From Hirudinaria manillensis (Eukaryota; Annelida; Clitellata; Hirudinida; Hirudinidae), in NCBI GenBank assembly GCA_034509925.1, contig CM067528.1, positions 953,501 to 1,017,500 on the forward strand: a DNA stretch of 64,000 nt, given 5' to 3'. Within the stretch, counting starts at the first letter, position 1, and every line of letters begins with the position of its first letter. The translations under genes and the position numbers were made by a program. The notes under the pieces were generated by a model. That model was not told the DNA's origin and made no database searches. It worked only from the letters and a program-made list of their open reading frames with translations. This document shows, one piece after another, positions 7,612 to 53,920 of this stretch.

Positions 7612-10600
7612 TTAAAAATCCAGGAATTCATCTCCGTACAGAAATTCTTCTGACTTTTCCAGCTCCTCTTCATCGTAATTATCAAAGTTACAGCTGTCAG
7701 TTTCACTTGTCATGTTAGGAACGTAGGGAGCATCGACCTAGGTTAACGTTATCAATTATGATTATTATTTTCCAAATTATCTATGTTTTCCGTTGTTATC
7801 ATTCTTGTTGTTATTAATATTATTATTATTATTATTATTATTATTTAATTATGATAGAGTAGTAATAGTAATTATAATAACGTAATATACAAGTGTTATG
7901 TCATGATTGAGTTTTATTTTAAATTATTAATAATAAGAAGAAGAATAAAAATAACAATAATATTAATCATAAAACATTCCCTCACCTTCCTGTAAAATAG
8001 GGCCGCCCAATCAGTGCCGTTGAACCATGGATGACCTTTAACCTCGTTGGCTCCGCCCCTCGAGCAGCCACACCTCTGGGTCACGTCAACCCGCAGAAGG
8101 CGTCTGACGAGGTCATTGAGTTCTTCGCTGAAGGAGCCTGGCACCCATAACTGGGTTCATTGGAAAAAAAAAATGGAGGGAATCGTTTAGTCAAGTCAAG
8201 TTAAGATATTTATTATCGCTCATGATTTCGTTCGCAATTTTTATTTTTTATTTTTGTTTTAAACCAAAATGAATCCGCAATTATATTGTTTATTATTGTA
8301 ATGTTTTTTTTAATAATTTAATGTAATTTAATTGCTTTAAATTCAATAGTTTTAAAATTTTGATTGTTAAGCGCTATATGATGCACGATATTATGTTATG
8401 TACCAAGAGAGAATATAATTGCAGATCTAATCGAAAATCTTTTTTTTTTAAATAATTTAAATATATTAAGAATTCATTATTATTGCAGAAATAATGACAA
8501 AAACATCAAAAATCAAAAAGAAAAATTAAAATTAAGACATCAAAAATTCTGCCTCGTTTAGAAAAAAAGACATTGAAGAGACAACCAAATTCTAAGAAAA
8601 TGAACAGCAATTTCCCGGATGAATTGGGAAAAATTTCCCTTTCAGAATGTCTCTCGAAAAGAGCTTCCCCTTCTGGAGAGTCGCTCCAAAGGTCAGGGTT
8701 AGGTTTAGGGTTAGGTCACCTCACGCATAGAGTAGTTCACCCCCATCCATAAGGTCACCCATGCCCTCCTACCCTAAATGAACTCGTCATTTCCAACTCA
8801 CCCTTCCGCTGACAATATTCTCGAATCTTTCCATGGATTCTTCGGCCGCAAACGGAGCGTAACCGGCCGCCATTTCGTATATGAGGACGCCCAGTGACCA
8901 CCAATCAACCGATTTGCCGTAACCCTGAAAATGCTTTTAAACGTTGCAATTTCGTTCAGGCTCAGGGTTAGGATTAGGGTTATGGTTATGGTTAGGGTTA
9001 GGGCTAGGATTAGGATTAGGGTTAGGATTAGGGTTAGGGTTAGGGTTAGGGTTAGGATTAGGGTTAGGGCTAGGGTTAGGATTAGGGTTAGGATTGGGGC
9101 TAAAGCTAGATCTAGTGTATCTCGATAACACTTATTTGTTATTTCGTAACGATTGAAGATTTAATTCCATGGATAAATAAATAAAGGATTGCTACATTTA
9201 TTTATTTCATTTTATTAAATTAATTAAATTATTTATTTATTTTTAATTTTCTGGTTATTGGTATCTATAAAATTATTTAAAGTCGCCCATAACATACTTT
9301 GTTCATAATCATTTCAGGTGCCAGATAATCCGGTGTACCACAGAGGGTGTAGGTGTGTCTGGTCGCTTTCTTGGCAAATCCAAAATCGGCGACCTAAATG
9401 TCATTAAATTGGTGTCATTTTTAAAAAAAATTATTCTACTAATTACTTTATTAATAATAGGAATCCATGTTTACTTCGCCTCATAAGTTACGCACACAAA
9501 ACTTTACAACAAAACAAATGCCAATTATTTTACACGAATGAAATCATATTGTAATAATTAAATTTAAATTTATTACACTTTAAACTACAATTTATTACAA
9601 TTTTAATTGCAATTTATTACAATTTAAATTACAATTTTCATTATATTTTAAATTACTGGTATATAATAATCACCATATATTATAATCACGATACCTTGAT
9701 GTAACCCCTATGATCAAGGAGAATATTTTCTGGCTTCAAGTCTCTGTAAAGGACATCGACGCTGTGTAGAAATTCCAGCACCATCACCACTTGGGCGGCA
9801 TAAAAGGCACTCATCTTTTCACTGGAAAAACATATTCGACGTCAACATTTGCTCAAAAATTGGTCGATCGATCAACCAATCAATCATTTTACCATTCATT
9901 TTCTTATGTTTTATTAAAAATCACGTCATTATAATTATTATTATTATTTTTATTATTATTATTTCAAGGAACGAATTTTTGCATCTGTCTGGAGAGATTT
10001 TTCTAAAATTTTTTCTGATGTTAAATAATTCCGCCATTTTCTTCCTCAATCGAATAATATCTTTTCAGGACAATTTTATTCGGAATTAAAGGCTTTAGGT
10101 GCCAACTCTGATCATTCAATCCAACGATTCAAAGTCGATCCAACATAAAAAAATATATTTTTCAAAATCTATGGATTTCCCGGTCTAATCCCATAGTGGC
10201 TGGTTTTTCCAGATGTCAGGGTGCATAATGGGCCTCAGAACCTTAAGCCGCAACTTGCCAACCGAGATTAGTTGGAATAAATCCGAAAAAAAAATTATTA
10301 TATTTATATATATTTTTTTTTGTTTCTGCTTCCTAATTCTTAATATCAATGAGTCACCATTGGGAACCCCATTAATCCCGTGTGCCGAGCAGAAGAAGAA
10401 AAAGATTAAAGTAAAGAATGAGGAAGTGAAAGAACGAATGCTAAGAGGATAGACTGTGGAGACTGACCCCGGTTGAGTGTAGAATGACGGGAGATGGGTT
10501 GGGGGGTTAGGGATAAATTGTGGTTAGGGGTTGGGGTGGTTTGAGGGGTGGAGTAGAAAAAGTACTCACGTGAATTTCCTTCTACTCCTGAGCAGGGTGA

Positions 10601-11076
10601 AGAGCTCTCCTCCGCAGCAATATTCCATGGCCATGTACAGGTTGGTGTTGTCCTGTTTAAAAGAAATATTATTCATGATGATGATGACGATGACTATAAT
10701 GATGATGACGAGAAGGATGATGCTGATGATAATGGAAACAATGATGACGACAAGGATGATGGCAATGATGACTTACTATGACTTACCATGAAATGATGTT
10801 CCAATTTGACTATGAACGGGAAATCGATGGAACTGAGAATTCTCTTTTCGTTCAGCGTGTGTTCGACTTGATTGGTTTTCACGACCTGTTAATTAGTGCA
10901 CATTATCATCATCATCATCATCAAGTTATTATTAAATTATAAAAATTATTGTGAATTAATGTTCATATGTACTGTTTACGTTGTCGGTTCTATTCAGTTC
11001 TCATCGAACCATTTGTTTAAATCAATATCAGCCATTTAAATGTATAAAGAACTTTTTTCTCAAAAATCAAGCTAAA

Positions 11077-11121
<45 letters not shown>

Positions 11122-13159
11122 ACTCTTGGTGTTATTGTTAAACTCTTAAATTAAGTTATTAATTGAAGTAATTTAATAAACTAAATTCAATAAATTTAAA
11201 TTTCGTTCCAGAGATGCCAGGCCAAATTATTACCCTCTCCTTGCTGAGTATCTTCACAGCAAAGACCTCCCTCGTGTCTCTGTACTTGGTGACCCCTACC
11301 CTGCCAAAGGATCCTGTGCCCACCGTCTTGAGCCAATCAAAGTCTTCTATGGACATCTCCAAAGACTGACGATGACGTACGAAATTAATTATTAATTTAT
11401 TTATTTATTTATTTATGAATTTATTTACTTATTTATTTATTTATTTATTCATTTATTAATTTATTTATTTATAAATGATGACATTAATATTAATAAGATG
11501 GCAGGTGACATTAAGAATTGATAAGATGATGAAGAATTGTATTTTGTAGTTTGTTTTAAATATAGATTTCTATTCACGACACATTATTTATAAAATGTTC
11601 TTTGGTAATGTTGGAAAATCCCAGGAGATGCTAATGAATATGTAATGAGGTTAAATTAATGAATAATTAATTGTTCTCTCAATCAACATATCCAATAAAA
11701 CGCTGAATGAATATTTTTCATGTGTGTGTGGTTTTTGCATCACCTTTGAATTTGCACCGTATTTCTGGTGGAATTCTTCTTTAAGACGGGCAAGGGAAGA
11801 TTTGTCTGCAAATAAAATTTATTTAAATAAATTATTTGATAAAATTTAATTAATAAATTATTTAAAATATATCCCCGAAATTAATTTCAAATATAACAAA
11901 ATTATCAAAAAACAAAGATGGTCGCACTGCCAGCAAGAACATCAAAAAATATTTTTGTACGATCAAATGAATTAAAGTAAAATAATTTGATGTTAAAATA
12001 CAGATGTAATGCTTAACTAAAGTAACCGATTGTAACTTCTCCTAATCACTAACATACAATTACGTGTAACTTTGTTTATTCGGGCCCAGCTGTCATTACC
12101 CAGACAGATGAGCCTTTCATGAATGAATTGAAATGCAGTCAAGTTGTCAACAATCTCAAGCAAGTCATTGTCGTCTAAGAGTTTCATCTGTTCAAGCGCT
12201 AGATAAATGGCTGTTCATCTTTTGCAAACTTCTGAACATGACTCCACAGAAATGAACATTAAAAAAGAAAAAGTCGAATGTTAAGACCGTGGTGACGATG
12301 ACTTTAAAAAGATTTAATCCTACTATTATTTCAGGTGCACTAAAGCTTGAAATTAAAAATAAATTAAATGGTATTTGAGTCATTTAATAACAAGAAAAAA
12401 CGTAATCAGTTTTCGTAGTAGCTCAGCGAGTGATATTCTCGCTTCCTCGTTTGTGACTGTTCAGTGTCAGAATTTAGAACTCACTTGAAGTGCTTTGGGC
12501 AGGGCATTAGCCTCGTATTCATGAAAAATGCTTTTTCTACCAACAGCTATGCTAAGAATTGCAAAGACAATAACAACAATATCAACGGCAACGACTACAC
12601 TAACAATGGCCACCGATAATAATCGAGACTGCTGCAACAACAATGATAATAGCTGGCAGTCCAGCATATCTGAGATACTATCCTTAGAGTACTGAGCGAT
12701 TTGTATCCAGTATCGAATATCGAATTGTCAAACATTAAGGTATCGACTTGATAAGCCATTAGCAATGTACTTCAGTCGATCTGTTGTAAACTCAAGTGCC
12801 TGTCCTAATGAAACCAACGAGAGCCAGATATCGGCAGCCTTTGGGGTCTATATGTGGGGCATTTCTATGACTTTACTGCAGTCAATGAATAGCCATCCAT
12901 CCATCAACTGCCATCAAAGGGACGATTATTGTCCTTTATCTCTAGCGCATCCATCGAAATTCTACACCTCTATCTGCCCAAATTTCAACAATAATCCGTC
13001 CACCACCCCATGGAAGTACCACCCACTCACATGCATTCTCCTGGTCTCTGTTGATTGAACTGAGTCTTCTTAGTTTGGCTCTGATGCCGTCAAAGAAGGA
13101 TACACTTGATTTTCTCACGGACATGTTCTCATCGCCAGACTTGTGAGATATGAACACCT
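7612..13159 (-). CDS. Kinase A: cAMP-dependent protein kinase catalytic-subunit-like Ser/Thr kinase
   Basis: Ten exons on the minus strand: 13159-13031, 11805-11744, 11365-11234, 10885-10787, 10652-10570, 9821-9695, 9393-9298, 8924-8802, 8150-7986 and 7737-7612; all phases agree. The likely start is the Met of [11 protein letters not shown] inside the first listed exon, though an exon farther upstream is not excluded. Motifs in order: A-helix exon, glycine loop [13 protein letters not shown], Glu of [24 protein letters not shown], activation loop [24 protein letters not shown], and C-tail ending EFLDF (FxxF hydrophobic motif). It keeps every catalytic residue, the activation-loop Thr and the three acidic residues that read P-2/P-3 Arg, so it is the closest to canonical PKA-C here. 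Oddities: Tyr replaces the regulatory-subunit-docking Trp, there is no Gly2 for myristoylation, and the N-terminus carries RKSS and RRLSS motifs that could themselves be PKA sites. Its introns hold a TTAGGG tract and a SINE-like segment. Confidence 0.9.
8964..9099. repeat. Interstitial telomere-like TTAGGG tract
   Basis: About 20 units of GGTTAG/GGATTA/GGGCTA variants, dominated by TTAGGG, lie inside an intron of kinase A (between 8924 and 9298). Smaller TTAGGG-like patches occur at 8693-8716 and, as CCCTAA, near 13480-13490. TTAGGG is the ancestral animal telomere repeat. The degeneracy indicates an old interstitial insertion and not a chromosome end. Confidence 0.9.
11078..11120. repeat. 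(AAT)n microsatellite
   Basis: About fourteen AAT units in a kinase A intron. A (TTTA)n/(ATTT)n patch of similar size follows at about 11395-11472 in the next intron. Confidence 0.9.
12419..12480 (+). mobile_element. Possible tRNA-derived SINE head
   Basis: The sequence TAGCTCAGCGAG at 12419-12430 matches 11 of 12 positions of the RNA polymerase III A-box consensus. It is followed by a stem-like region (GCGAGtgatattCTCGC, 12426-12441) as in tRNA-derived SINEs. A convincing B box is not visible and no target-site duplication was identified. It lies in the first intron of kinase A, on the opposite strand. Low certainty. Confidence 0.25.
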
Positions 13160-15746
13160 CTGAAATTAATAAATAAATAAATTAATTAATTTAATTGTCA
13201 ATTGGTTAAGTGTCTTAGGTTAAAGCCAATTTATAACAATTATTCTCGAATAAAGATTAATGTTATGATAAAAAGTTTTCAAGATCAAGTGGAGATACCA
13301 ATAGGAATCAATCAATCAATCAATCAATCAATCAACCAACAAAGTGAAATATAAATTTAAAGTAGAAAAGTCCAAATTACTGGGAAACGTCTTCCTAATT
13401 CTGTCCTTCAGAGTAACCATCTTTGTTGGCTTCGTTGATGTTAACTTTTTTTTATTGTTTTGTAACGACCCGACCACAACCCTAACCCTAAGTCCGAGCC
13501 AACTAGAACTGTTAAGAGACCGGCCCTATGATTTCACAATCCTCTCTACCGCTTAGTACTGTTCTTCCATCACAGAGTTCACTGGTGATGAACAACAGTT
13601 TAACAATATCTCATAACCTTCAAACTTCGTCTTAGACAAATATCTCTCCAGGAAACACTGAAACCGTTAGTTAGTAGTGCTGTGTTTGCAGGAGTCAAAC
13701 GATAAGAATCTTCTAGACAAGTATAGGCAATATATGATCGAGCTTCTAGACTAAATGAAGTTTAGCGTACTTTAGGACTCAGTAAAACTACGATAGTCGG
13801 TTAAAACTACTTCCTCTTCTTATTCCTCTTCCTCTGTTTTTCTGAGCGTCACTTACACAACTATGGTCAACTATGACGAGAACAACAACAGCGTTGTCTC
13901 CTAAAGTCGCAAACTTAAAGAGTCATCACTCGCACCACAAACGCCCTGTCAGGAAAACGAAAGACGGACCGATCGACTTGCTTTTATATATATATATATA
14001 TGAGTGTGTGTGTGAAGCGCTAGATCAGTCTTTGGATGATCACGTGGTACCAGATAATGGCTAATCACCTGAGCGCTTAGGTATGCTCTCGGCAGGCCAA
14101 ACTTCACCTGCCTTAATCCTCCTCTCTCCAAAGGATATGCGGCTGTTTGTTTGTGGTCACTGCAAGCATTTCTTACTTCTTAAGAATCGGACATCGATGA
14201 TTAATGATGTAATAAATTACCGACGACTTGTTGACAAATTATGCAATGTATTTGTTGCCCTGAATTTGTTGATCCGGTTCTGTATTGTTTGTTTATTCAT
14301 CTTTGTTTCAGAAGTTTATGTTTTTCGTACAAAAGCTTTGCCTGACTTGAAACTATGCCCTTTCAATGTTATTCAACCTTCGATATCTGATTTGGTGTTG
14401 TTGCTGTTACTACTATTATGATTGTTACCGTTATTATTGTTGTTGCTATTACTAATATTATGATTATTACTGTCAATATTAATATTATGCCATACTATAA
14501 ACGGTTTTTTATCGCTTCAAATCAACTTTGTAGGTATTGTTGTTGTTGTTGTGAAAAGCGAAACTCAGTCGTTTAGGAGGACTGCATAATTTATTTTCGG
14601 TCTCATAACCTAGTGTTACCTGTTATCATTCTTTCTGTCATTGATGTTATTATTTTTATATTCTGTTTATTATATTAATATGCAATATTTCGTGAACATA
14701 GAACCTAATACGGCTAATAGCAATAATAGCAAGTTATATTATCAACAGGTTATGATGATGGTTGATAAGAACATCAGCATCAATCGTTCCAACCACTTTA
14801 CCAACACCTTTTCTACCCACGTTGTTGATACAAAAAAGTCCACAACAACAACAACAACAACCACAACAACAGAATGCAAAACGTATTCATTATTTTTTTT
14901 TTGCGGCGATCCACAAACTTGAAAAGTTAATTTAAACGGGACACGACTTGTTAATCAGATGTTGCTGTCAAATAATTCCATTTGTTAATCACATTGTTGC
15001 ATTAAGTACCAACAACGAGATTATGGCTTTGTCTGTGTAGTTGTAAATAGTTTTGGGAACGACGTAGTTAAACATCTTCTTAGATATTTCGTGTTAGAAT
15101 TATTCTTATTAATAAATTATAAATAAATTAATAAATTATAAATATTGTTATTATTGTTGTTTATTATTTACAACTTTTATTTTAAAATTAATCACAATTA
15201 CTGTGTCAACAGCAACAACAACAATAACAACAAGTTTACTTTGGCTTGTGTTTTACAAACCAAAGTCCTGTAAATTTGTGACGTAAGCGGCGCTGGAGGT
15301 GTTAAAAATAAAGTACACTTTTCTTTTCAAAGAGATGTACACGACCCAATTAAAGCGATTTAATAAAATTAAATCATAAATGGAACAAAGTCACAAAAAT
15401 TATTACATATTATTCACATATTATTGTTGCAACGTCTGTAAACACCACAAAGTGTTTTCATCCCTTTTATTTAATTACGTTTTTTTTTAATTTTTATTCC
15501 ATTTATTCAAGAATTATTTTAATAATTGATTTTAAAATTATTCTTCAAGTAATTAGCTAGAATATAATTATCTACTTAATTAGCTCCATAGCTTTAATTC
15601 ATCTAAGGTTCTGTGGAAGTTATCAAATTATTTTATAAAAACAAATCTTTGAAGTCTTTAAAAATACATTTTCGTGATTTTTTTAAAATTAAACAATTAA
15701 AAGAATTACTTTATTATTATTGTTGTTGTTCTTCTTCTTCTTCTTC

Positions 15747-15750
<4 letters not shown>

Positions 15751-15783: not shown

Positions 15784-15784
<1 letters not shown>

Positions 15785-24286: not shown

Positions 24287-25680
24287 ATGATGTTCATGAC
24301 TTGCGGAGATATTTGTGCTGTTTCTGTATGTCTTTGTAGATCCAGACGGATTGCAGGCGCAAAATTACGGAAAGCTTTGAGTTGCTGCACCAGAAAATTG
24401 ATATCTTCAGTCGACCACGTTAGGTACAAGATTGCAGAGGTTCACTCTAGGAATACTTTTGCCAGCATGTATGAGTCCAACCCTACAGCAGAAGACATGT
24501 CCATAAGCGAATACAAACACATAAAGACCATAGAAAAGGGTACGTTTGGCACTGTCAAACTGGCAAAGCACAAGGGCAGTGGAGAATTCAGTGCCATCAA
24601 GATCGCTAGAAAATCAGTGGTTGAGAAACACATGAGAAACTTTAAGAGGGAAAAGAGGATATCCAAATCCTTGGATCATCCATTCATTTCCAGAATGCGT
24701 CATCACTTCATAGACGATAGTTTCGTCTACTTTGTCATGGATTATTACCCTGCAGGAGACTTTTCTGGCTACCTGAACGAATACTTCCTGTTGAGCCTTC
24801 CAGAGATCAAATTTTACGGAGCTCAGATAGCCATGGCCATAAAATTCCTCCACAGTTTGGGAGTCATTCATAGGGACATAAAAATAGAGAACATCTTCAT
24901 CGACGGAGATGGTTACGTAAAACTCGGAGACTTTGGTATGGCCAGGACGCTTAAGAAGAACGAAAGAGCAAAAAGCATCTGCGGATCTATGGTCTATATG
25001 GCGCCTGAAATGCTCAAGACGAAAGAAGACAATAAATTGGTAAATCATCCACTGCTATTATCGATTATAATATTTTAGAAAAATTAAAATATCTTCTCGT
25101 TGTCCATTTTCAGGGATACGGGCTATCGGCGGATTGGTGGTCCTATGGAGTCCTCATGTACATTTTCGCCTCGGGTGTGATGCCCTTTGCAAATTGCAGC
25201 TTGTCAAACTATAAGGACATCCTAGAAGCAAATGTAATTGATAATTATAAATGTTTTTTTAAAGATTGTTCATCCTCTATTCCCTTAATGAATGGTCATT
25301 GACCATGCTGTGCAATGTTTCTCTAACACCAGTGCACTTTCTCGTGTCAGATCATTATTTCTTAATTTCTAGACTCACTTTCGATTCTTTTTTAATAGCT
25401 CGAATATCCTGATGACTTGGATACAGTTGTGGTGGATTTCCTGCGCAAGTTAATAACACCAGACATCGACAAGAGACTGGGATGTGGAACGGGCAAACAC
25501 CAGAAAGTACTGAAGCACCAGCTGTTCGCAGACTTAGACTTGACGGCCCTCTACTTGAAGAAGGTCCCATCTCCGTTGATACCGACTTTCCTATCGCCCC
25601 ATCAGGTGATACCCACGGGGCATTTCGGTGCGCCCATACCTAGGGAAAAACCAAAGACCGATGACTTTGTAGATTTTTGA
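24287..25680 (+). CDS. Kinase B: divergent PKA-like AGC kinase, intron-poor
   Basis: Exons 24287-25039, 25114-25233 and 25399-25680 give 384 aa. The N-terminus is Cys/Arg-rich (MTCGDICAVSVCLCRSRR, then a CC pair), which would suit palmitoylation, and is unlike the other copies. Kinase motifs: IEKGTFGTV (first Gly of the glycine loop is Glu), AIKIA, EKRIS, HRDIKIEN (Pro of KPEN is Ile), DFGMAR, SICGSMVYMAPE (activation-loop Thr is Ser), DWWSYGVLMY, and C-tail ending TDDFVDF (FxxF kept). The segments that kinases A and C-G split over five to eight exons are one 753-nt exon here, yet the last two introns remain, which points to partial intron loss. Asp replaces the Glu127-type residue and Ile the Glu230-type residue, so substrate preference should differ from PKA. 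An AATAAA polyadenylation signal lies at 25863-25868. The closest sibling in the array by N-terminal junction sequence appears to be kinase D. Confidence 0.9.
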
Positions 25681-28205: not shown

Positions 28206-36120
<7,915 letters not shown>

Positions 36121-36504: not shown

Positions 36505-38234
36505 ATGATTTGTTTTTGGAATAATGCAGGTAAATGTTTGGAACTTGCGAATTTTTTCTGCCGATTAGTCATCAAAACAATCTAATTAGTTTATGATCTG
36601 GTTAAATAATATTCAAACAATCAAATTGTTATGATGAAAATGTCTCCAAGTTGCTACGCGTTTACCAGGAGAGGTTGAAATTGATTTCCTATTTTTTATT
36701 TTAAATATTATTTCATTGTAAACTATTTCTGATTTCATTGAGACTTTTTAATAAGTTAATTAATTAACTTTTAAACTATTAACAAGGTCTTAATTTTCCA
36801 GAGAGCAAACTAAACTTTCCAGACAGACTGAGACGGAGATACAAGGAATGGAAGAATCAGAGAAAGAGTAAGACTGGCTTGTTTATAACAGCTGATTGTT
36901 TATAATAATTGAAAACGTTCAAGTGAAATATATTAATACATGGAAAATGTCATTTGCTTTTATAATATTTTTAATGCTATTTAAAATATATTTAATGCTA
37001 TTTATATAATATAATTTAATAATTTAATATTTAAAACTATTCACAAATGCCTGATATTTAACCTTCATGCATTTTCAGATGACCACTCTGTTGCCGAGTT
37101 GAAGAAAGCATTTAAGGTGACTTACGAAGCTGATGTTAAGGTAAAAATTAATTTCAATTTCAATTCCACTTCCTGGTTGAGCCGCTTTTTTGGTCCCTCA
37201 TTCCATTCCTGATGACTTAATCTTTGATCAAATAATGTTCTTATTGCTAGCATTTCAATAGCTGTAATTGTGCTGATAATGATGCTTTGCGATGGAGCTT
37301 TGATGTTTAATGATGCCTTGTGGATTATTAATTAAATTATTAATAATAAATTAATAATAATTATCTAATAATAAATTATTAATATTAATTTCCGTTTTAC
37401 AGGCCAGCGATTATTCCATTACGGACTTCGAGAGATTGTCAAACATCGGCAAAGGATCTTTTGGAAAAGTTGAATTGGTGAGGAACAAAAAGACTTCACA
37501 ACTCAGTGCCCTCAAGATTATTAACATGAAATCAGTAAGTCGCTGTTATTATTCCAGTTATTATTACTGTTATTATTACTTAACAATTATTATTATTATT
37601 ATTAATTTATTAAATTATATTATATTATATTATATTATATTATATTATATTATATTATATTATATTATATTATATTATATTATATTATATTATATTATAT
37701 TATATTATATTATATTATATTATATTATATTATATTATATTATATTATATTATATTATATTATATTATATTATATTATATATTAACTTATAAATAATAGT
37801 TAATTGATATATTAATATTTATTTAATTACGCAACAGATTGAAGACGACACGGCACATGATCATCTGATAAGAGAAAAAAGAATTCTGAGTTCAATTCGC
37901 CACCCTTTCATTGTGACCTTGAGAAGTCATTTCAAGGTTATTACCTTCATTTTTGATGATTTTTATTTTTAAAATGATTTAATGTTTTTGACAAAATTAA
38001 TATTTTACTATTTAATTCCCATTCAACGCTCATTCTCGGTGGCTGTTCACAAGAATTACAAATAATTCTTTTATTTTCATTAATAATATCTTTTTTTTGT
38101 TATATTAATTAATTTTTAATTTATTTAACACAGGACGAATCGCGTCTTTATTTTGAAATGGAATATTATCCAGGCGGCGACCTCTTCACGTACGTTCAAA
38201 AGAAGGGCAAGTGTTCGTAAGTGGACCATATCCA

Positions 38235-38284
<50 letters not shown>

Positions 38285-39232
38285 CATTATTATTATTATC
38301 ACTATTCCATTGCTTCAATTTCCATTACCTCAATTGTTATTCGCAGGGGCAACCAAGCCCGCTTCTATGGCGCCCAAATCTTGATGGCCATCGAATTCAT
38401 GCACAGCATCGGAATCGTCCACAGGGACTTGAAGCCCGACAACATCATGCTGAACCACGACGGGTACCTGAAGATCGTGGACTTTGGCTTCGCCACGAAG
38501 GTCACCAAGGACGGAATGTCCACCCTTTGTGGGACGCCACGGTACATGGCACCAGAGTTGTATTTGATCAACGCTTCCTCTAACAATGACCAGGTATGTT
38601 TTGAGAATATATATATTTATTTATTTATTTATTTATTATTTATTTGATTAATTAATTATTATTTTATTTAATAGCCGAAATATTACGATACAGTAGAATG
38701 GTGGACTTACGGTGTGATCATGTACACCCTGATAACTGGAAAGGAACCTTTCCGTGAAAATTCCTTCAGAAATTCAGTCAAGATCATTGCAGGAGTGGTG
38801 AGTCATCCAAATCTTCTCCTTTAATTACATTCAAATAATTCATTAATTAATATTCATGTCTTAATGCTAATGATATTAATAATTAATATCCATGTCGTGA
38901 TACAAATTATAATTATTCGGGCCTGAATTACAACTATTTCTCCATTTTTTTAGGTTTTCTATCCGCTTAACTTACCCAGCGTTGTTAAAAGATTCCTAGA
39001 GGGTTTACTCCAGCCCGCGGTCCACGAGAGACTGGGGTGTGGAAAGAAGGGATCAAAGGAGATCCGGAACCACGAATGGTTTGCCGGGACGGATTGGGTG
39101 GCCATCTTCAAGAAGGAGGTGGAAGCGCCCTACGTTCCAAAATGCCCTGTAATTGAAAATTTGACCAGAAAAGATTCCAAATCTGGGGACATATCTGCCT
39201 ATCGTGGGGACTATGTATTTGCTCTGTTTTAA
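36505..39232 (+). CDS. Kinase C: PKA-like AGC kinase
   Basis: Exons 36505-36529, 36802-36867, 37079-37140, 37403-37534, 37838-37936, 38134-38216, 38347-38593, 38675-38797 and 38954-39232 give 371 aa. The start in the 25-nt first exon (MICFWNNA) is chosen because it splices in phase to the next exon, and is the least certain part. An Arg/Lys-rich segment ([14 protein letters not shown]) and the A-helix exon precede the glycine loop GKGSFGKV (intact), [43 protein letters not shown] with the activation Thr, [19 protein letters not shown], and a C-tail ending YVFALF (FxxF). The catalytic-loop and activation-loop segments, separate in kinase A, are one 247-nt exon here. Asp replaces Glu at the 127 and 170 positions and Thr at 230, so the acidic pocket for basic substrates is weakened. 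It is the first of five head-to-tail copies. Confidence 0.87.
37613..37780. repeat. (ATTAT)n pentanucleotide microsatellite
   Basis: About 33 TATAT/ATTAT units in the kinase C intron that starts at 37535, preceded by a short (ATT)n run. The pure AT pentamer is distinct from the trinucleotide class that dominates elsewhere in the window. Confidence 0.95.
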
Positions 39233-39874: not shown

Positions 39875-42435
39875 ATGGAGACATTAGAAGACAAGAGACA
39901 GAAGAAGAGCATCATAAAAAGGACTTTGGATTGGTTTAAAAAGAAAGAAACAAAGAAACAAGAATTGAAGGATTGTCAGTTCAACGTTTTCTTTCTTCTT
40001 GTAGTTGCTTTGTTGCATTGTTTACCGTGATAAACTCTTACCTGTATTAGCTGCTATTTGTTTTTTAATTGCAAGGAATTCGAAAGAAATATTGTTAAAC
40101 TTACTGTGGCAATCAATATTTATTTACTTAATACTTAACTGAATATTAACACGTAACTCGTGCAATCAAACTTTGAATTATTCGTTAATAAAAAAATTAA
40201 ATGCGTTGCATAAATTCAGGTGGAACTTTTTACTATTTTCTTACCACATTTCAACTCATCCATCGTGATCCATTTTCTCCTCAGACAAAATCAAGGTCAG
40301 CTATCTGGAAACAATGTTCGCCCACTCCTACGGGGTCAATCCGAGGGCGGACCAAGGATTATCCATAGGGGAGTACGATTGTATCCGAACCCTTGACAAG
40401 GGCACCTATGGTAGCGTGGATCTGGCCCTTCAATCCAGCACTGGAAAGATGTTTGCCATCAAGAGCATCAAGAAGGAACTTGTAAGTTAGATATCTTAAA
40501 TTCCAAATTTTTGGCTCAGCATTTTAAAGTTTGGATTACTGTTGTGAGATATTGAAATTATGTTGTTTGCTGTATTTAAGAGCCAAAATCCCAAGATTCT
40601 TAGCAGTAGGTCACTTGTTTTAAACCCAGAAATGGCTCTTTTTAAGTCCATGATTATAAAAAAAGGTCCCTGTTTAATAATTTAATATGCTTACGTAACG
40701 TTACTTATCACTGATTTACATAATTTATGCCCGTATTCTTATCTGCGACTAGTTGAAATAAAAAACATTGAAGACCACGTTGCAATTCCCAGGTGGTTTT
40801 CCAAACAATGAAGCACTGCCTTTACAGCGAGAAGAGAATTCTGAGATCAATCAATCATCCGTTCATAGCACGGCTGAATCATCACTTTGTCGTGAGTTTA
40901 TTCCTACCAATTAAGAGTATTAAACGTCTTAAATCGATTTAAAATAAATCAGTCGATTTTAACATTTGAAAATTTATATGGCAATTTATTTCAAACAATA
41001 CAGGATGAGGCACAATTGTACTTAGCCATGGATTATTATCCAGGCGGTGACTTGCATTCACTGTTAAGGAAAATGACCTTTTTAACGTAAGTTAAAAATA
41101 ATATTAACATTGTTATTGTTGTTATCAATGTTCTATTTATAATAATAGATACTAATGTATTATTAGTTGATATACTGCAAGATTACCTGGAACGCTGTCA
41201 TCATCACCTTAACCTGTTAATATTATAAATATTAATTAACTAGTTGTTGTAAATTATTATAATTTATTATAAATTAATTTTGATCAGGGAGGATTTGGCC
41301 CGCTTCTATGGGGCCCAGATTGCGATGGCGCTCGACTTTCTTCACAACATTGGTGTGGTTCACAGGGATCTCAAGCTGGAGAATGTGCTCCTGGATGGGA
41401 GCGGATACGTCAGGTTGGGGGACTTTGGATTTGCCGAAATGTTGGCCGGCGGGAGTTCCAGGGAGCTGGTTGGCACCACGGATTACTTGGCTCCTGAAAT
41501 GGTCGTCAGCTATGTCTGCTTTGAGAGTGTAAGATCGTTTTGTACCCGTTTTGTTTGGCATAAACGTTATTATTATTATTAATATTTAATGCTAATTTAT
41601 GGTTTATTTATATTGATATGGAAATTTATAACAAGTCTCACTATTTTGGTTAATCTGATAATCTTTAGATACCATTTATAAATAATTCTTAACAGAATTC
41701 TTTATGCTCATTTAATTCATATTATAAAATTACATTCTCAGACTTTTAATCTTGCTTCTAGCATTTGCATCGGAGAATTTATAACAAAACAATTTCCATT
41801 TTTAATTCCAGAGATACTCCTATTCTGTAGACTGGTGGTCTTTCGGTGTTTTCCTGTACCTCTTGACCACTGGAGAGTTTCCATACGATGCAGCCAATCC
41901 GGCTGACGTGTGCAAGGTCATCAGAGCCAAGGTGGAATCTTCAAGAGCATTAACTAGTTTTCGTTTTCATGATTTATTTTAACAATTCCATTTAAAGTGA
42001 TGTTAATTCATCATCAACATCATCGTTCTTCCTTCACCACCATCTTCATCGTTATTGCCAGCTTAAAACCCATTTTTAAAATTTTATTTCTACTCTCATC
42101 CTAAACAATGAAACAAAAAAAAACCATTCAATGCTTAATCGATTTATCCATCGCAGATAAAATACCCGAAATCAATGAGCAAAAACCTCAGGAAACTCCT
42201 CAAAGGGCTGTTCATCAAGGACCCTCTCAAAAGACTCGGCTGCAACTCGAGGGGCATCAAAGGCTTACGCGACCATCCGTGGTTCACCCCTCTCAGTTGG
42301 CCGGCTCTGTTCAAGAAGGAGATACGAGCTCCCTACGTGCCACATTGTCCTGAGATTGATACCAGCATGAAGAGAAAGTTTACCTGCCAAGAGACGCCGA
42401 AAAATCCGTGTCCCTTTGATTTTGAAGACTTCTAA
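39875..42435 (+). CDS. Kinase D: PKA-like AGC kinase with Glu at the activation-loop Thr position
   Basis: Exons 39875-39974, 40285-40481, 40793-40891, 41004-41086, 41288-41528, 41812-41931 and 42157-42435 give 372 aa. The N-terminus is strongly basic (KRTLDWFKKKETKKQELK). Motifs: LDKGTYGSV (first glycine-loop Gly is Asp), AIKSI, EKRIL, YPGGDLH, HRDLKLEN (Pro is Leu), DFGFAE, RELVGTTDYLAPE, DWWSFGVFLY, KRLGCN, DHPWF, and a C-tail ending FDFEDF (FxxF). In the activation segment the residue aligned with PKA Thr197 is Glu, which could imitate phosphorylation and make the enzyme independent of a loop kinase. Asp replaces Glu127 and Leu replaces Glu230. An AATAAA lies directly after the stop at 42441-42446, giving a very short 3' UTR. 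The model is firm; the consequence of the Glu is inference. Confidence 0.9.
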
Positions 42436-43633
42436 ATTGGAATAAATGGGTTTTTTTTAATTAGTCGTGAAATGTTTCGTAATTTGTTCCGTGAATTGTT
42501 AGGTTTTGAAAATTATATGTCTGAGAGTTTTTGTCTGATTACATCGTCTTCTGTTTAAACTGGCTTGAATCGAAATTTTCATCGATATCGATTTCATCGA
42601 AAAAACGCTTTTAAAAATATGTTTCCATATAAAAACATTTGTCTACTTTTATAAAATTACCTTGAATTTATAACAGAATAATTTTTGTAAATTGATTTCA
42701 TAAAAATGTTTCAAGTATCTGTAGAATCTTTAACGAATAAGTATCAAATACATAATCTTTTTAAAAAGTGACTCCATGTTAAAGTCATGTGGTTTACAAA
42801 ATCATTTCATCATTCTTAAAGTGTTTATAACCTAAATACAAAATTTGAAATTAATTCATTGTATGAAATTATAAATAACAATAATAATATTAATAATATT
42901 ACATAAAGATACAAACTCGTACGAAATAGATTTTTAAAAACGTAAAATCAATTCAGAATTGGTTAATGTTAATATACAATGTTCAACCATTTTTCAAGCA
43001 CCTGCGACTAAGTCATTAAAGTTAGTATTTAAGTTATTATTTATTTCTAGATATTAATTTTTATTTTTTTCGGACGATAAAGATTTATTTTAAAGAAAGA
43101 AACATTTTACAGGATATCGGCGACCTTAAATGACCTTAATCGCTATAATAAAATCAAACATTTATTAAAATATTGTAAAAATTAAAATTTTATTCTAAAA
43201 TCTTTATTTACCGATGATCTTTTGTTTATTAAATTTAAGCAGTTATCGCAAAAGTACGTTGTACGTTTACGATGTACTAGCATTTCTCGAGAAAGCTCCA
43301 TTTTGTTATCCAAATTTAAAAACAAAACTGCATTTTGAAAGGCTAAGAAATTTCGGGTACGAATTGAGTTTCATTCAAAAACAAAAAACAATTTTAAAGC
43401 GCTAGTGTCATGTACTCGACCGAACATATGCACATGGGTCTTAAATTATCGCGCAGTAAAAAGGTAAATATTTACATCGATGAAAGTAAACAAAGATCAA
43501 AATAACGATCGCATTTATTTAAATTCTAATCAATCGCGAATTAGTCATCGAATATATCTCTAAATTGGCAAATAATTCCACTAATAATGATAATTATTAA
43601 TAAATTTTAATATTTCAGCGTAGTTCTGTAAAC
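42436..43633. other. Spacer between kinases D and E
   Basis: AT-rich interval of 1.2 kb without recognised exons. It carries the D polyadenylation signal and, close to the E start, an AG that could be the acceptor of a 5' UTR intron (tttcag at 43614-43619, just before the E start codon). Confidence 0.55.
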
Positions 43634-46452
<2,819 letters not shown>

Positions 46453-47671
46453 GGAAATCGTCTCCTACCTCGTTTTGTATGAATTTCGGTGAAAAAAAGT
46501 TTGTTTGGTTTTTTAATCCAATTCATGGCTTTTAGGATCGTAAGAATTAAATGTAATTCAATCAGTTATTGTACAAATTATTTGTCCTAATAAAATTCTT
46601 TGTCGTCTTTTTAAAGTTACTGCGATTAATTTTTCTTTCTTTTTTTAAATTTGCAACCAAATTTAATAATAAACATTTAATAAATAAATAAAATAATATT
46701 CACTAATAAGCTTTGGAAAGGAAAAAGTCTGGAGTTACTTGTAAAAGTAAGGTTTCGCGGTAAAAGTTGCTTTGGAAAAATTTTGATTTTACTTAATTTT
46801 TATTATTTCTGTTTAAATTAGAACTTTAATTAAATGTCGAGAATATAATTTATATTTTGGAAATTTTAGTTTTTCGACTTTTACTCTGTTAAATGAATAA
46901 TATTTATTTCGTTTAAAATACGTTAAAATGATTTTATTACGTAATCAGTTATCTTGCCGATCTAATGAAGTCTCTTTAATTCAAATATTTAATTACAAAA
47001 TCCTTTAAAACCTGAAATGATTTTTACATTTAAAATTCAATAAATTTTTAATTATATACAAGCAAATAAATTTCATTTACAATTTTATACCAAACACTTG
47101 TTTCTTTGTAAACACTGGGGACACTGAAATGACTCCAATACATCGTCCAAACACATCTTTAGACTTGACCAATACAGTTTCATACATTGGAGAGAACATT
47201 AGTGAAAGGTAGAATCACATGGCATTAAGACATCGCGAAATTCAGACATTTTCAGCATTTAATTATGCGATTTTTGACGAGAATATTTTAAAAAATGCCT
47301 TTAAGATTTCAATCAACTTTCGTCAATAAGCTCTTTGTTGACCTGTCAATGCCAAATCTCACGCTTTTCGCCTGCAAATAATTCTTAATAAAGTATAGAT
47401 TTTAATTATTTCAAAATAATAACAAATCGCTATAAAGTTTCACTCGATGCTAACATATCGACAATGTCTTTGTATCGTATTTGGTAATCAAAGTCACTAA
47501 CCTTTGGGCTGTAAGCTTGTCTGAGTTGGTCAATTGATTCGAGTGAGCGCTAGATAATGCAGTCGTGTTTTTACCTAACCGCTTGTAGGAAAGCATTCCT
47601 GATGGAGTTTTTAATCGAATGCTGGCTTTTATTGTAGCAGGGGAACGTGATAAACGTTATTGAGAATTGAT
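46453..47671. other. Spacer between kinases E and F
   Basis: AT-rich 1.2 kb with the E polyadenylation signal at 46589-46594. No recognised exon or repeat of note. Confidence 0.6.
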
Positions 47672-50592
47672 ATGCCTTTTCGAGTACAATCGTTGGTTGA
47701 TTTGTTTAGTAAACTCAGAGGCAAGGAGAAGAAATATAAGTGTGAGTCAACTGTTTTTGTAATTCATGATAAAAGAAAAATAAATTATTAATAATTCATT
47801 CAATGATCAGTGAGTTGATTTTTTTTATTTCCAGACGAAGATGAATTGGAACAAGCAAAGCTCAACTTCGTTAGGAATTTCAGCGAAAGACCAAAGGTGA
47901 AAAGCTTTCTTTATTATTTATTGTTATTTTTATTATTATTATTATTATTATAAGAAATATTTGAATATTAAAATTAGCATAAACTAATTTGCATTGAGAG
48001 CGACAGAAAATTGGCTAGTTATAGCCAGGCCATTGCGAGATGAAACTTTAGGCTAATTAGATGTCTCATGAATAAATAAATATATTCAGGCCACAATAAA
48101 AATACTTTTAATAATTTATTCACAAAATCCATGACAACCTCTAGCAACTGGTAATGCAGTCGGCTGACTTCAGATGGATTGAAAAGCTGGGTACGGGAGG
48201 GTACAGTAAGGTCTTTTTGGCGAGACACTTGGGCATGAAACAGTACTGGGCAATCAAGGTCATAAAGAAGAGCGATGTATGCTTGTGCAGTTATTTAAAT
48301 TATTTTACTTTAATTTGCAATTAAATAATTAATATTATTATTATTATTAATTAGTTAATAAGAATGATCAAGTCATTAAAAATAAATTATTACTTGTTGC
48401 GTAATCGTTGTCGAAAATAGCTGAAGGCAAATGTGGCACGTTTTCACAATGCTGTTTTTTGGCGCTAAGGTGTTATAATTTCAAAATTTAAAAGCGTAAT
48501 TTAAAAAAACTATAATTAATTTTAATTAATTTAATTTTGAATTAATTCTGCAATTTCATTGGAGATTACAAACTACAAACATTTGGAACACATGAAGAAC
48601 GAAATTAAAATCCACCAACCAATTGAATTTCCATTCATAGTTGGGTTCAGAGGACATTTCGAGGCAAGAGCATCATTGTCATCGGCATACTGCTTTACTA
48701 TTTCGTTATTATGTGCAAAAACAAATTATCATAATTTATGCTAATTAATTAATTAATTGTTATTACATACATCACAGGGTAACTTCAACCATTACTTTAT
48801 TCTCGACTATTGCGGTGGAGGTTCGTTGGAAAAACAATTCCAAGTTTCTGCGCGTTTTCCGTGAGTCAATAGTTTTTTTTTAAATATATCTAATTTTACT
48901 AATTTATGCAAATTTATACATGAAAGTAGGATCTTGATTACACATTATTTGCTCATTTTTTGCATCATATATCATTCATTTTAAATGAAATTTAAGAAAA
49001 AAGCATTAAAAGATAATTTATTAAGTCGTAATTGAAAATAATTCAAAAACCTTCTTTCTAAACCAACAAATTCTTCCAGCGAAGAGCACGTGAAATTCTA
49101 CGCTTCCAATGTATTCCTGGCTCTGGAGTTTCTCCACGGCATCGACATCGTGTACAGAGACTTGAAACCGGAAAATCTGCTCATCGGTGAAGATGGATAC
49201 ATCAAGGTTGGTTGAATGTCAAGAAATTAGGTTGATTCCTAAATGCTGATTGATCAATCACACTCGAATCTGGTTGACATTTGGTTGATTTTGTGGGTTA
49301 AATGTAACTATAGCGGCTCTTGCCCATCCCACTAAGCTAGCTATTCCTATGGTTGCCCGAGAATTTATTAAAACCATTAAATAATAGTAGTAATCATCAA
49401 CGTTGGCTAATGTCTATCTGAATTTATGTATTTTATTTTAATATTTCGCTTATATAATTATGTTATTATAAAATAAATTTTAATTATCGGAAATTCCAAA
49501 TTAAAATCTCAATTTTCACAGCTCTCGGACTTGGGATTTGCCAAGATGATCAAACTCAGAACGACGACATTTTGTGGCACCAACGAATATTATGCCCCTG
49601 AAATGTTCAACGATAGTAGCAAAGGATCGGGAAAAGTAATTTTATCCACTATTATTAAATTAAATTTATTAATCATTTATTTAATTATTAAATTTTATTA
49701 AGTACATTATTTCCATCAATTAACTGGTTATTACATCCAGGGCTACGGCAAAGAAGTGGATTGGTGGACGTTCGGTATTCTCCTCTACGAGTTGGCCACT
49801 GGGCAGGTGCCTTTTCCGGCACGAGACCAGGGAACTTATAAGACGGCCGTGACCTCTGAGGTGGGGTCAACTTATATCAAAACGATATCTTTATTTGTTT
49901 CTATCTTAAATATTAAGACGCTTATCTGACTATAGAATCATCTAATGTATCCGTATTCATTCTAAGTCCTAATATCTCATAGTTTTAAAATATTTTGATG
50001 CTAAAATGATTTTTATTAATATTACATTATCATTTTATTAAATCCATTTTAGCTTCATTTCGAGCTTCCAGATTACTTGAGCGATAACTTCAGAGACCTA
50101 CTTGGTCATCTGATAACACCACCGAAGTATAGATACGGTGGCCCAAATAAAAGTTACAAACTTATCCAAGAACATCCGTGGTTTCAGGACCTCAATTGGG
50201 ATGACGTGTACGAGAAGAGGGTGATTAGTTTGGTTGTCGTTTTTGGTTTCACATGGGATAATTAGAGATGTTTATAATTTTTAAATTTAAGAAACATTAC
50301 TGTGAAGTAATACCTTAAAATACATTATGAGAAATAATGATAGGATATGAAATGTTTAATGAAATATGTCTTTTAATTCATTTATATTTAAAAATATTCT
50401 CGTGGAATTGGAATAATTTTGGATCAAAAATTTTATAAATAACATCAGGCAGGTGATGTATGTATCCAATCTCGGAATGTTACAGATAAATTAAATGTGT
50501 TACAGGTAAAAGCACCTGCAATCACGTGGAGGTCGCCTGAATCTTTGGACAATTATACGACGCGGTACAAAGCAAGAACACACGGGACCTAG
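47672..50592 (+). CDS. Kinase F: PKA-like kinase with DLG and without the FxxF tail
   Basis: Exons 47672-47741, 47835-47896, 48145-48276, 48565-48663, 48778-48860, 49080-49206, 49522-49635, 49741-49860, 50053-50220 and 50506-50592 give 353 aa. Motifs: LGTGGYSKV (third glycine-loop Gly is Ser), [46 protein letters not shown] (loop Thr kept), [12 protein letters not shown], and EHPWF. The last exon gives [19 protein letters not shown] and stops 11 codons later, with no terminal F-x-x-F, so docking to the PDK1-type pocket should be absent. The intron after 48663 starts GC (GAG|GCAAGA), a plausible GC-AG intron that yields the conserved 99-nt exon exactly. Ser replaces the Glu127-type residue; Glu170 and Glu230 types remain. 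AATAAA lies at 50891-50896. Confidence 0.9.
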
Positions 50593-51314
50593 ATCATTAT
50601 AATAATGATTATTATTGTTATTATAATATCAATTATGGCAGCATTTTGTAGGAGTAAATTATAATTTAAGAGGCCACTTTGACCAGTTACGAGGATATGA
50701 ATTCGCGAATCTTCGTTCCATGTCTAAAGTCGACTTTAAAAAATTGAAATCCATATTTAATAAAATAAATGACAACAACAATAATAATAATAATAATATC
50801 GAAATAGGAATGCTTTGAATACGTTTATGCCTGCAGATTTGAGACTAAATTTGTCCGAAGCAGCGCAAATGACTCGTTTTAAAGTGCAAAAATAAAGTTT
50901 TATATTTTTTTTTGTTTTTGAATTGTAAATATTTATTCGTTTAATAATTTATTTTGAAATAAAACATCGTCTTTAAATCAACATTATTTTCTTCTTTTGT
51001 ATCTTTTGAGTGGGAAATTTGAATTTTAAAATGTTTTCAATTATTAACAGTAACCGGTCACGAATAACAGATGATGTACATGCCAGGAATTGTTATAAAA
51101 ATATCACGAACTACCAAAATAAATTAAAAATTTAAAAATAATTCCCTTAAAAATTTATTTTTATTACCTTTTGATTAATATCTTTTCGTTTAGAAATAAA
51201 ATCGATGTGTTTACAATACCAATTGTCGTTCAGAACTTGTTACAACCAAACAGCAACAAGTCTTAAGTTAACAATTGGACTAAACTATCTGTTTACATAT
51301 CAATTCATCAAGTC
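50593..51314. other. Spacer between kinases F and G
   Basis: AT-rich interval with the F polyadenylation signal (50891-50896) and the G promoter region. No exon recognised. Confidence 0.6.
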
Positions 51315-53920
51315 ATGGATTCTGGTAATTTTTTAAATAATTCTTAATAAAAAAAATGTTTAATTCATTTCGTAAGGTTCAGCAAATCTTGTAAACGTTA
51401 CGACATCATTAACTTTCAATACGTACCGAAGTGACCTAGGGTTACGCTTTGACCTAGGGTTACGAGTTGGCACCTTAACTCGTATGACCCAAAACAAAAT
51501 AACAATTTGATTGAATATAGTTCATTAAATCCCACGGTTTTTTTTTCTTTAAGATTTCTCTCGCTTGGCCTGCAGTTGCATTGCATGTCCTTTCATTACT
51601 TTGGGTTTGATAGCAGATGGAGTTATCAAGTGTCTGAAACGTGCTGCATATGTTGAGGAAGAGAAAGAGGATGACATGGAACTATATAGAAGATCGAAGC
51701 ATTTCAATTGTAAGTTACTTGATTTTTATTTCGATCAAATATATATTTAATGCTATTTAATAATGCCATGATACCGCTTAATTTGTTGCTGTTTTGTTTA
51801 CATTTACAAGTTTATGCTTCTAATGAACAACAGTAATAATTAAAGAAATAATAATTAAATAAAGTAATAATTAATGAAATAATTAAAATATTAATTGATT
51901 GCTAATTACTTCTATGATGGCAGACGAGGAACAAATGTCGCGTTTGAAGATGGAATTCGAGAAAAAATACTCCTCATGCGAAACTGTAAGACGAATTGTT
52001 ATAAAATTATTTTCAATCTTATATTTGATATTCTTAAATCTCTCAAAAGTATTCATTGTTGGTTTATTATTTTTAATTTGCTTACTTATCCCTGACATTC
52101 ATTTAAAATACGATCTCCTTAATTTAATTCATAATTTATTATAATTTTTATGGACAGAAAACAAGCCTCAAACCAGCTGATTTTGATTGGTTGAAAGAAC
52201 TTGGCAAAGGAACCTTCGGCGAAGTGTACCTTGCCAAACACAAGACAACAAAATGTCTACACGCCGTCAAAGTTTTCGGCAAAGAAAAGGTAAAAGACCT
52301 TCACCCCATAATTATCTTAAATATTATTTGTAATTATCTCAGCGTTGCTCATAAGCATAATAATATCAAGTCTCGATATATTTTATCCCTCCTAGTAATT
52401 TAGATGTTGCTAGATGATTACACATCTGATATGACCATCAAAAAATTATGCTTGACCTAACTACATAATACTATCACCCGGCCATTACTGAATTACCGAT
52501 CAAAAATGTTATCGTATTTTCAACTTTTCCAGGTAAGAAAACTGATGAGGACTTGCAATTTAGAGAGAGAAAGGATGATCCAGAACTCCGTTGATTTTCC
52601 CTTCATAGTCAAATTGACGGCCACATTCAACGTTGGTTTTACTTAGAATAATTTAAGCAAATTAAATATTATAATTATTACTACTACATATGCTCATTTT
52701 TAATTTCAGACACGTGACCGCCTGTTCATGGTGATGGATTATTGTAAAGGCGGACATCTTTTGGAGTTGGTGAAGATGAAGAATCAATTGACGTTGGTTT
52801 CGTTATATTATTTAATATATATTCTATTTTGGATTATATTGAATTCATTATAGTACGTTATTAATTAATATTAGATGCTGGATATTATATATATAGAGAG
52901 ACTTCTTTTAACAAAATTAATGAGAATCTCAGATAATAACCCTATAATGATATAAAAGAATATCAATAATTAATAATAATAATACTAACGAATATATATC
53001 ATAATTTTACAGCGAAGAAAGCGTGAAGTTCTACGCAGCCCAAATATTTCTCGCTATCGAATATCTCCATAACAGCAACATCATTCACAGAGACATTAAG
53101 TTGGATAACGTAGTATTGTGCGACGATGGCTACGTTAAGGTATGTAATACTTTTTTTAAAATTATCATAATTTATTATAAAGGGGTCTGCACAGACATTT
53201 CTGTTGCTTCAAAATACCTAATTACCCTGCGCATTATTCAGATATTAATAACTAATTTTTTTTACAAATCTCCTTCCAGTTGACAGATTTTGGCTTCGCC
53301 AAAGTTATACAAGACAGAACGATGACCCTTTGTGGCTCAAAAGGGTACATACCCCCAGAGATATTAACGCAATTTCTCGGTCTCAGAATAGGGGTAAGTA
53401 TCTGGTTGACTAAAAAAATCTTTTAATAAGCACAGAATTTGATTACATCCTGGCACAATTCTTCGCAGGAATACGGATTAGAGGTAGATTGGTGGTCTTT
53501 TGGTATATCCCTATATTTCATGGCAGTGGGGTGCGTACCTTACCCCGGAGATTCACTATCAGAAGTCCACGAAAATATTAAAAATAATAACGTGAGTGAA
53601 AAATTAAGCTGACCTATAATTTTATAACGAAATGTAATTACATTATATTCGACCTTCAGGTTTCTTATCCGAGCAGTCTAAGTAGCGAATTCATTCAACT
53701 TACCAAAGAACTATTGGTGGCAGATCCAAAGGCCAGACTCGGAAGCAAAGGTGCCAAAGAGATCAAGGACTGTGATTGGTTCAAAGATACCAATTGGTCC
53801 AGCATCATCAACAAGCAAACAATGGCACCTCACATCCCTTTTAAGCTGTCGTTTCACGAACCCAAAATCGACATAAATCTTGAGGATGAGGAGCCGGTTG
53901 ATGAGTTCATCAACTTTTGA
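51315..53920 (+). CDS. Kinase G: PKA-like AGC kinase with a Cys-rich hydrophobic N-terminus
   Basis: Exons 51315-51324 (10-nt microexon), 51554-51709, 51924-51985, 52158-52289, 52533-52631, 52710-52792, 53013-53139, 53280-53393, 53469-53591 and 53660-53920 give 388 aa. Exon 2 encodes LACSCIACPFITLGLIADG, a Cys-containing hydrophobic stretch suited to palmitoylation or membrane association. Motifs: LGKGTFGEV (intact), AVKVF, ERERMI, CKGGHLL, HRDIKLDN, DFGFAK, TMTLCGSKGYIPPE (APE is PPE), DWWSFGISLY, KARLGSK, and a C-tail ending EFINF (FxxF). Loop Thr and catalytic residues are kept. His at the 127 position, Asp at 170 and Phe at 230 predict loss of PKA-like Arg selection. AATAAA lies at 54032-54037. 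The microexon start is supported by phase only; an in-exon Met could be used instead. Confidence 0.88.

Follow-up and report, generated by a model that had tools for sequence, protein, structure and literature searches.

Seven genes for kinases of the PKA catalytic-subunit (PKA-C) type, named here A to G, lie in a window of 64,000 nucleotides from the leech Hirudinaria manillensis (GenBank GCA_034509925.1, contig CM067528.1, forward-strand positions 953,501 to 1,017,500), the window being the whole stretch of DNA analysed and the frame of all coordinates below unless a contig is named. Spliced alignment places A on the minus strand and B to G on the plus strand. The array probably arose in the leech lineage by an old local radiation of a gene for the PKA catalytic subunit, in the course of which B to G would have changed in control and in substrates. 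The descent of the array kinases from PKA-C is close to certain: a preliminary description of this DNA, made from its letters alone, had called all seven PKA-C-type, and this was upheld by introns, by a C-terminal FxxF motif in six, by solved-structure matches in 6/6 kinases tested and by one of two trees. Few known kinases are as strongly conserved as PKA-C, a structural prototype, and seven diverged, apparently intact derivatives beside at least four ordinary genes offer a direct test of losing or replacing regulatory (R) subunit control and arginine-directed specificity.

Gene models were obtained with a purpose-written spliced aligner and mouse PKA C-alpha as query, all models thus being guided by mouse PKA, and 3' ends were set by in-frame extension to the first stop. 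Kinase A (7612-12187, minus strand; aligner span 7615-12103, stop at 7612) aligns over 10 exons with a score of 944, ends in FLDF-stop and is the nearest to canonical PKA-C, with 58% kinase-domain identity to the mouse protein. Kinase B (24287-25680, plus strand; aligner span 24446-25677, stop at 25680), whose open frame has its first ATG at 24287, encodes the region from N-lobe through activation segment in a single exon, carries Ser197 and Glu in place of Gly50 and ends in FVDF-stop. Kinase C (37090-39232, plus strand; aligner span to 39142, stop at 39232) was modelled with 7 exons, retains Thr197, has Glu for Asp220 and ends in FALF-stop, while kinase D (39887-42435, plus strand; aligner span to 42342, stop at 42435), also modelled with 7 exons, has Glu for Thr197 and ends in FEDF-stop. 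Kinase E (43213-46452, plus strand; aligner span to 46449, stop at 46452) has Asn for Gly50, Ser197 and an FQDF-stop end. Kinase F (47717-50592, plus strand; aligner span to 51114) has nine PKA-C-type introns and, in the simplest model, a short C-terminal tail without FxxF that stops at 50592. Kinase G (51926-53920, plus strand; aligner span to 53914, stop at 53920) was modelled with 8 exons, with Gln for Leu95, Phe for Glu230, Pro for Ala206 and an FINF-stop end.

The core exons of these models are clear, and doubt is confined to the N-terminal exons of C to G, to three small exons of the automatic model of E (43213-43253, 43624-43640 and 45635-45652) and to the tail of F, whose automatic model runs on to 51114 through two final small exons that we do not accept. 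The automatic third intron of B and tenth intron of E were dropped, continuous frames to the FxxF-stop being preferred. The places given for the seven kinases in the preliminary description were recovered by spliced alignment, with identical ends for A and G and the same ATG of B; its extension of A to 13159, on the other hand, had no coding support, exon 1 being supported as far as an ATG near 12187, which is our reading of the 5' end. Kinases C to G lie head to tail over 16.8 kb, within the 17.5 kb previously proposed. The array as a whole is not a clean tandem row, for A is inverted and lies about 12 kb from B, and the gap of about 11 kb between B and C contains other coding-like sequence. 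Genome searches with A, E and G, in which only the best candidates were scored, found no further members beside the array on its contig (C3). A possible relic exon at 46913-46993, suggested by a weak tblastn match (E 0.088), was rejected as its frames are not kinase-like.

All seven models are free of stops, as the preliminary description had held for every copy, and all seven match the Pfam domain Pkinase (E 1.2e-58 to 5.9e-71). In order to set a neutral expectation, the coding sequence of a leech PKA-C was decayed in 200 runs to 60% identity and in 200 runs to 42%. A stop-free frame survived in 0/200 runs at 60% (fewest stops 3) and in 0/200 at 42% (fewest stops 5), and all seven key residues were retained in 4/200 and 1/200 runs respectively. 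Since stops arose in 400/400 neutral runs, the stop-free frames of the seven models are not due to chance. The splice junctions of the models are GT-AG apart from one GC-AG, and third-position GC is 0.50-0.61, compared with 20-38% GC in 2-kb bins over the array region.

These observations, together with the catalytic core, bear on the explanation that the seven are degenerating pseudogenes, or pseudokinases with no enzymatic role. Lys72, Glu91, Asp166, Lys168, Asn171, Asp184, Gly186, Glu208 and Arg280 are kept in 7/7 copies, and Asp220 is retained in 6/7, kinase C having Glu. The stop-free models, regular junctions, intact core and high third-position GC within an AT-rich region all speak against decay, which has on its side the loss of accessory residues in several copies and the long branches, and is considered improbable. 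The earlier claim that catalytic residues are present in every copy consequently holds for the core but not beyond it: Gly50 of the glycine loop is lost in B, D and E, Gly55 is lost in F, B, F and G have a polar residue at spine position Leu95, Asp220 is changed in C, and residue 197 is Thr in A, C, F and G, Ser in B and E, and Glu in D. The polar Leu95 of B, F and G, the lost glycines of B, D, E and F and Pro206 of G could mark weak or dead kinases and count against six active enzymes in B to G. The balance tilts towards most copies being active kinases.

One line of evidence for descent from PKA-C comes from the introns. Kinase A has introns at 15/1, 36/0, 79/0, 112/0, 139/2, 182/0, 214/0, 255/0 and 310/0 (PKA residue/phase), the same nine as the ordinary leech PKA-C gene L039, and kinase F keeps nine PKA-C-type introns with the second at 35/0 rather than 36/0. 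The last seven of these positions are shared by all four (4/4) ordinary PKA-C genes recognised in this leech, and those whose N-terminal exons were located have further introns at 35 or 36/0 and at 15/1. In the other copies the absences are nested: 310 is missing in B, C, D, E and G, 182 also in B, C and D, and 79, 112 and 139 also in B. Three introns, in C and in G near 214 and in E near 255, stand 4-5 residues away from the reference positions; local gaps may have displaced them, in which case they would be the same introns. Introns between PKA positions 45 and 311 were compared with the seven reference introns of this leech's own PKA-C genes. Exact agreement in residue and phase was seen for 35/39 array introns, versus 1/42 introns of seven other AGC genes from this genome (PRKX-like, PKG and PKC-type, two each, and one MRCK-type) that had been aligned in the same manner (Fisher p 2.7e-17, a value to be read with the introns being inherited and not independent). 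With a tolerance of 1-2 residues the counts were 35/39 and 3/42. According to the available part of PMC3625193, a nine-intron plan with identical phases is found in vertebrates, amphioxus, tunicates, sea urchin, a hemichordate and Daphnia, and the available part of PMC5526564 places a PKA-C intron at Val15, phase 1. This Val15 intron agrees with those of kinases A and F. The remaining published PKA-C intron positions presumably agree as well.

A C-terminal FxxF is a hallmark of PKA-C. An FxxF-stop terminus is present in 6/7 array kinases (A, B, C, D, E and G), and those of C, D and G were found through frame extension alone, independently of the aligner. Among solved structures, PKA-C was the top match in 6/6 kinases tested, namely the single exon of B (143.5 bits, AKT next with 126.1), C (270.8 vs 224.5 for AKT), D (242.5 vs 224.0 for PKC), E (265.4, followed by yeast PKA with 226.4 and RSK with 204.2), F (245.1) and G (237.5 vs 199.4 for PKC), A not being among those tested. 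A tree under a site-mixture model joins the seven in one clade (84/95) adjoining PKA-C, with A basal and B to G as a clade (94/95) within which only B+D is resolved (89/86).

Several observations weigh on the opposite side. The intron contrast shrinks when 5 residues of tolerance are allowed (38/39 in the array, 11/42 in the controls), and the PKG genes have introns at 183/0, one residue off the PKA-C position 182/0. Kinase F has no in-frame FxxF, and the same FxxF scan returned five similar strings joined to no kinase frame. In the site-mixture tree the grouping of the array with PKA-C has low support (61/50), and in a tree under a simple model with PKC and MRCK as outgroups B to G group with these outgroups and the seven fail to form a single clade, a split that is read as long-branch attraction. 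The phylogeny called for by the preliminary description therefore yields one clade next to PKA-C under the mixture model and a divided array under the simple model with PKC and MRCK.

This divided tree is one of two points in favour of several AGC families (PKC, GRK, SGK and PKA) lying together by chance. The other comes from the related leech Whitmania pigra (W. pigra), in which, as far as the available part of PMC10111769 describes it, a 21.7-kb stretch of contig23 carries seven kinase genes, two under the name PRKACB, two under kin-1 and one each under PKC1, GRK-3 and SGK-1, published as a Wnt-pathway cluster with five predicted kinase domains and gaps of at most 3979 bp. Compared by description, this cluster is probably related to the H. 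manillensis array, at least to C to G: both comprise seven kinase genes, four of which are annotated as PRKACB or kin-1 in W. pigra. Its short gaps, however, would not fit A and B, which lie 11-12 kb from their neighbours, and this counts against a simple one-to-one match. Against a chance assembly of families stand the shared PKA-C introns, the FxxF ends, the mixture-model tree and the lead of PKA-C over the next other family by 17-61 bits in the five structure tests listing one; PKC, GRK and SGK were never the best solved-structure match among the six array kinases tested. Such a mixed cluster is consequently very improbable, and the published annotation of the W. pigra cluster, in the part available, is a probable candidate for correction.

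PRKX and PRKY were also compared with the array, as they are AGC kinases adjoining PKA-C. PRKX has an FxxF end too. The two PRKX-like genes of this leech, L031 (contig C1) and L032 (contig C6), whose kinase domains share 57 and 56% identity with that of mouse PKA-C, differ from the array in matching the PKA-C introns exactly in 0/13 cases; array introns follow the PKA-C genes and not these two.

To place the array among its kin, a genome sequence of 148,429,096 bases in 23 contigs was searched, and twenty stretches with kinase matches, a subset of the genome matches, were aligned to mouse PKA-C. At least four ordinary PKA-C genes were found outside the array: L038 on contig C2 (91% kinase-domain identity to mouse), L037 on contig C13 (83%), L039 on contig C7 (82%) and L040 near 10.0 Mb on contig C3 (78%). 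Besides the two PRKX-like genes, the other aligned stretches resemble PKG, PKC, MRCK and unrelated kinases, the family names being our reading of the sequences. The erythrocruorin-linker family, which is specific to annelids, also occurs in this genome. Seven RIIa matches exceeded the cut-off, two of them, on contigs C12 and C13, within 20 kb of matches to the cyclic nucleotide (cNMP)-binding domain; R subunits do not look expanded in this exon-wise search, which may miss some.

The array kinases themselves are far less conserved, A being 58% and B to G 37-43% identical to mouse PKA-C, and the copies share 34-43% kinase-domain identity with one another. In the available part of PMC3625193, invertebrate PKA-C is given as more than 77% identical to human, within a compact clade. 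The array, at 37-58% over the kinase domain and against mouse C-alpha, does not reach this level, and the seven are for this reason filed as divergent PKA-C-derived kinases, not canonical PKA-C. An assembly artefact, with copies collapsed or wrongly joined, found no supporting evidence: the copies are too different from one another for assembly error, the assembly is a HiFi and Hi-C chromosome-scale one and a similar cluster is reported in W. pigra, leaving this explanation practically no probability. For the H. manillensis HiFi assembly, the available part of PMC10671345 gives 22 scaffolds and a mitochondrial genome, 13 chromosomes ranging from 14.76 down to 8.30 Mb, an N50 of 11.46 Mb and a total of 148.59 Mb.

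Synonymous differences per site were 0.66-0.91 in 55/55 pairs of eleven PKA-C-type genes, at or near saturation, and the radiation is therefore considered old. Finite pairwise ratios of nonsynonymous to synonymous change (dN/dS) were 0.14-0.43, values that are based on near-saturated synonymous sites and are not evidence for single copies. The preliminary description had proposed a lineage-specific radiation, of which the unusual copy number and the PKA-C origin stand, with the qualification that the synonymous differences and the probable W. pigra relative make it old rather than recent. The unusual number of copies likewise stands in part: invertebrates are described with one PKA-C gene (PMC5526564, in the part available), while four PKA-C isoforms are reported in decapods (available part of PMC12608923) and at least four ordinary genes are present here. 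These ordinary genes of one annelid genome alone exceed the single gene described for invertebrates. In the portions available, PMC3625193 and PMC12608923 report several PKA-C genes in vertebrates, and the PKA-C survey of PMC12608923 has sequences in excess of species among molluscs and flatworms; its annelids are represented by 2 PKA-C sequences, drawn from 3 species, and an identity filter of 60% was applied. This cut-off would exclude members of the array. The decapod isoforms are, like the array, lineage-specific invertebrate paralogues, but as described in that part they are set apart mainly by their N-termini, the kinase core being conserved.

Compared with metazoan PKA-C in general (PRKACA/PRKACB, PKA-C1, kin-1), the array is alike in its catalytic core, in the FxxF of six copies, in the activation-loop Thr of A, C, F and G and in the leech PKA-C intron plan, which is complete in A and, but for one codon, in F. 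It differs in its 37-58% identity to mouse, in its seven neighbouring copies and in the erosion in B to G of the contacts to the R subunit and to PKI. The contacts were scored at 27 PKA positions taken from PKA structure work as touching PKI, the R subunit or the substrate. Kept among the scorable sites were 19/27 in A, 7/27 in B, 11/25 in C, 8/25 in D, 10/25 in E, 14/27 in F and 9/26 in G, compared with 25-27/27 in the ordinary leech PKA-C genes, 23/27 in the PRKX-like genes and 17 and 18/27 in two PKGs, whose overall identity is similar to that of the array. Two points tell against the use made of this count, for the list comes from PKA structure work rather than from this analysis, and a low overall identity by itself depresses the number. 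Kinase A keeps Glu127, Glu170, Glu230, Tyr330, Thr197 and Lys213, with Tyr replacing Trp196 and His replacing Arg194. B, C, D and G no longer have Glu230, and at position 127 Glu has given way to Asp in B to E, to Ser in F and to His in G. Because contact residues are changed in B to G, altered specificity and weak R-subunit control can be argued, though not proven. Whether most of B to G would have escaped R-subunit control is close to an even question, leaning slightly to the negative.

The seven might instead be ordinary redundant PKA-C paralogues, all regulated by R subunits and differing only in the place and time of expression. The catalytic core in all copies and the FxxF end in six agree with this, as do the four decapod isoforms and several vertebrate genes (available parts of PMC12608923 and PMC3625193). 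B to G, however, are only 37-43% identical to mouse PKA-C versus more than 77% published for invertebrate PKA-C, and the loss of Glu230 in B, C, D and G and the replacement of Glu127 in B to G do not fit, making redundancy a rather unlikely account.

An old radiation with changed control and substrates could have proceeded as follows. An intron-bearing PKA-C copy would have been duplicated in place, A remaining closest to its origin and B to G diverging with nested intron losses. The ordinary genes on contigs C2, C7 and C13 and elsewhere on C3, at least four in number, could carry canonical cyclic AMP (cAMP) signalling, and the array would therefore have been free to change. By its kept Glu127, Glu170, Glu230, Tyr330, Thr197 and Lys213, A may still be a basophilic kinase, inhibited by R subunits and released by cAMP. 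B to G would be active Ser/Thr kinases with altered inhibitor-docking and substrate pockets, acting on other substrates and governed more by expression and activation-loop phosphorylation (in D by a fixed Glu197) than by R subunits and cAMP. In its fullest form this suggestion, offered tentatively and with the odds somewhat against it, is that B to G make up a leech branch of PKA no longer under cAMP control. All six would be active, their pockets for inhibitor and substrate altered, and in D a permanent acidic side chain would stand in for the activating phosphothreonine; long retained at one locus, they would have escaped earlier surveys through identity cut-offs and mixed annotation. H. manillensis may thus possess a set of PKA-derived kinases whose control has changed. 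Leeches serve in the study of cAMP- and serotonin-dependent behaviour.

Among the papers listed in searches for leeches and for expansions of PKA or of kinases at large, in a collection of open-licence texts and judged by titles and abstract openings, none describes the array as a PKA-C radiation. The word 'kinase' has 0 occurrences in the leech papers PMC10087013, PMC7992859 and PMC10671345, and it occurs once in PMC8787918, within a histidine kinase term. The finding is of a divergent PKA-C family gathered in a cluster, part of which has probably been noticed earlier under different names.

Around the array, a rhodopsin-type G-protein-coupled receptor gene lies at 1256-3189 and a gene for the AAA ATPase fidgetin-like 1 (FIGNL1) at 54289-56092 on the minus strand, adjoining kinase G. 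A UBR-box gene follows at 59734-60502 on the plus strand, with a zf-UBR match above cut-off (59734-59934) and a ClpS-type match below cut-off (60164-60502). Coding-like exons at 29361-31190, between B and C, resemble an M13 peptidase by eye and, having no Pfam match, were left unnamed. Rfam at gathering thresholds and ARAGORN gave no matches in the window. Telomere-like tandem repeats of the TTAGGG type occupy 8922-9130, almost entirely within an intron of kinase A.

Other kinase clusters were seen elsewhere in the genome. Uninterrupted kinase open reading frames stand in tandem over about 50 kb of contig C6 (8645517-8695013, minus strand), four of which (651-660 amino acids) have two kinase-domain matches each; in one of this run, L017, the first domain has HRN and GGF in place of HRD and DFG and looks like a pseudokinase fused to an active kinase. 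Nine adjacent kinase frames of 383-451 amino acids, eight on the minus strand and the ninth on the plus strand, lie on contig C11 (8124348-8140118), and contig C8 (3218643-3267020, plus strand) carries twenty-six tandem kinase frames of 471 amino acids with near-equal scores and a spacing of about 1.9 kb.

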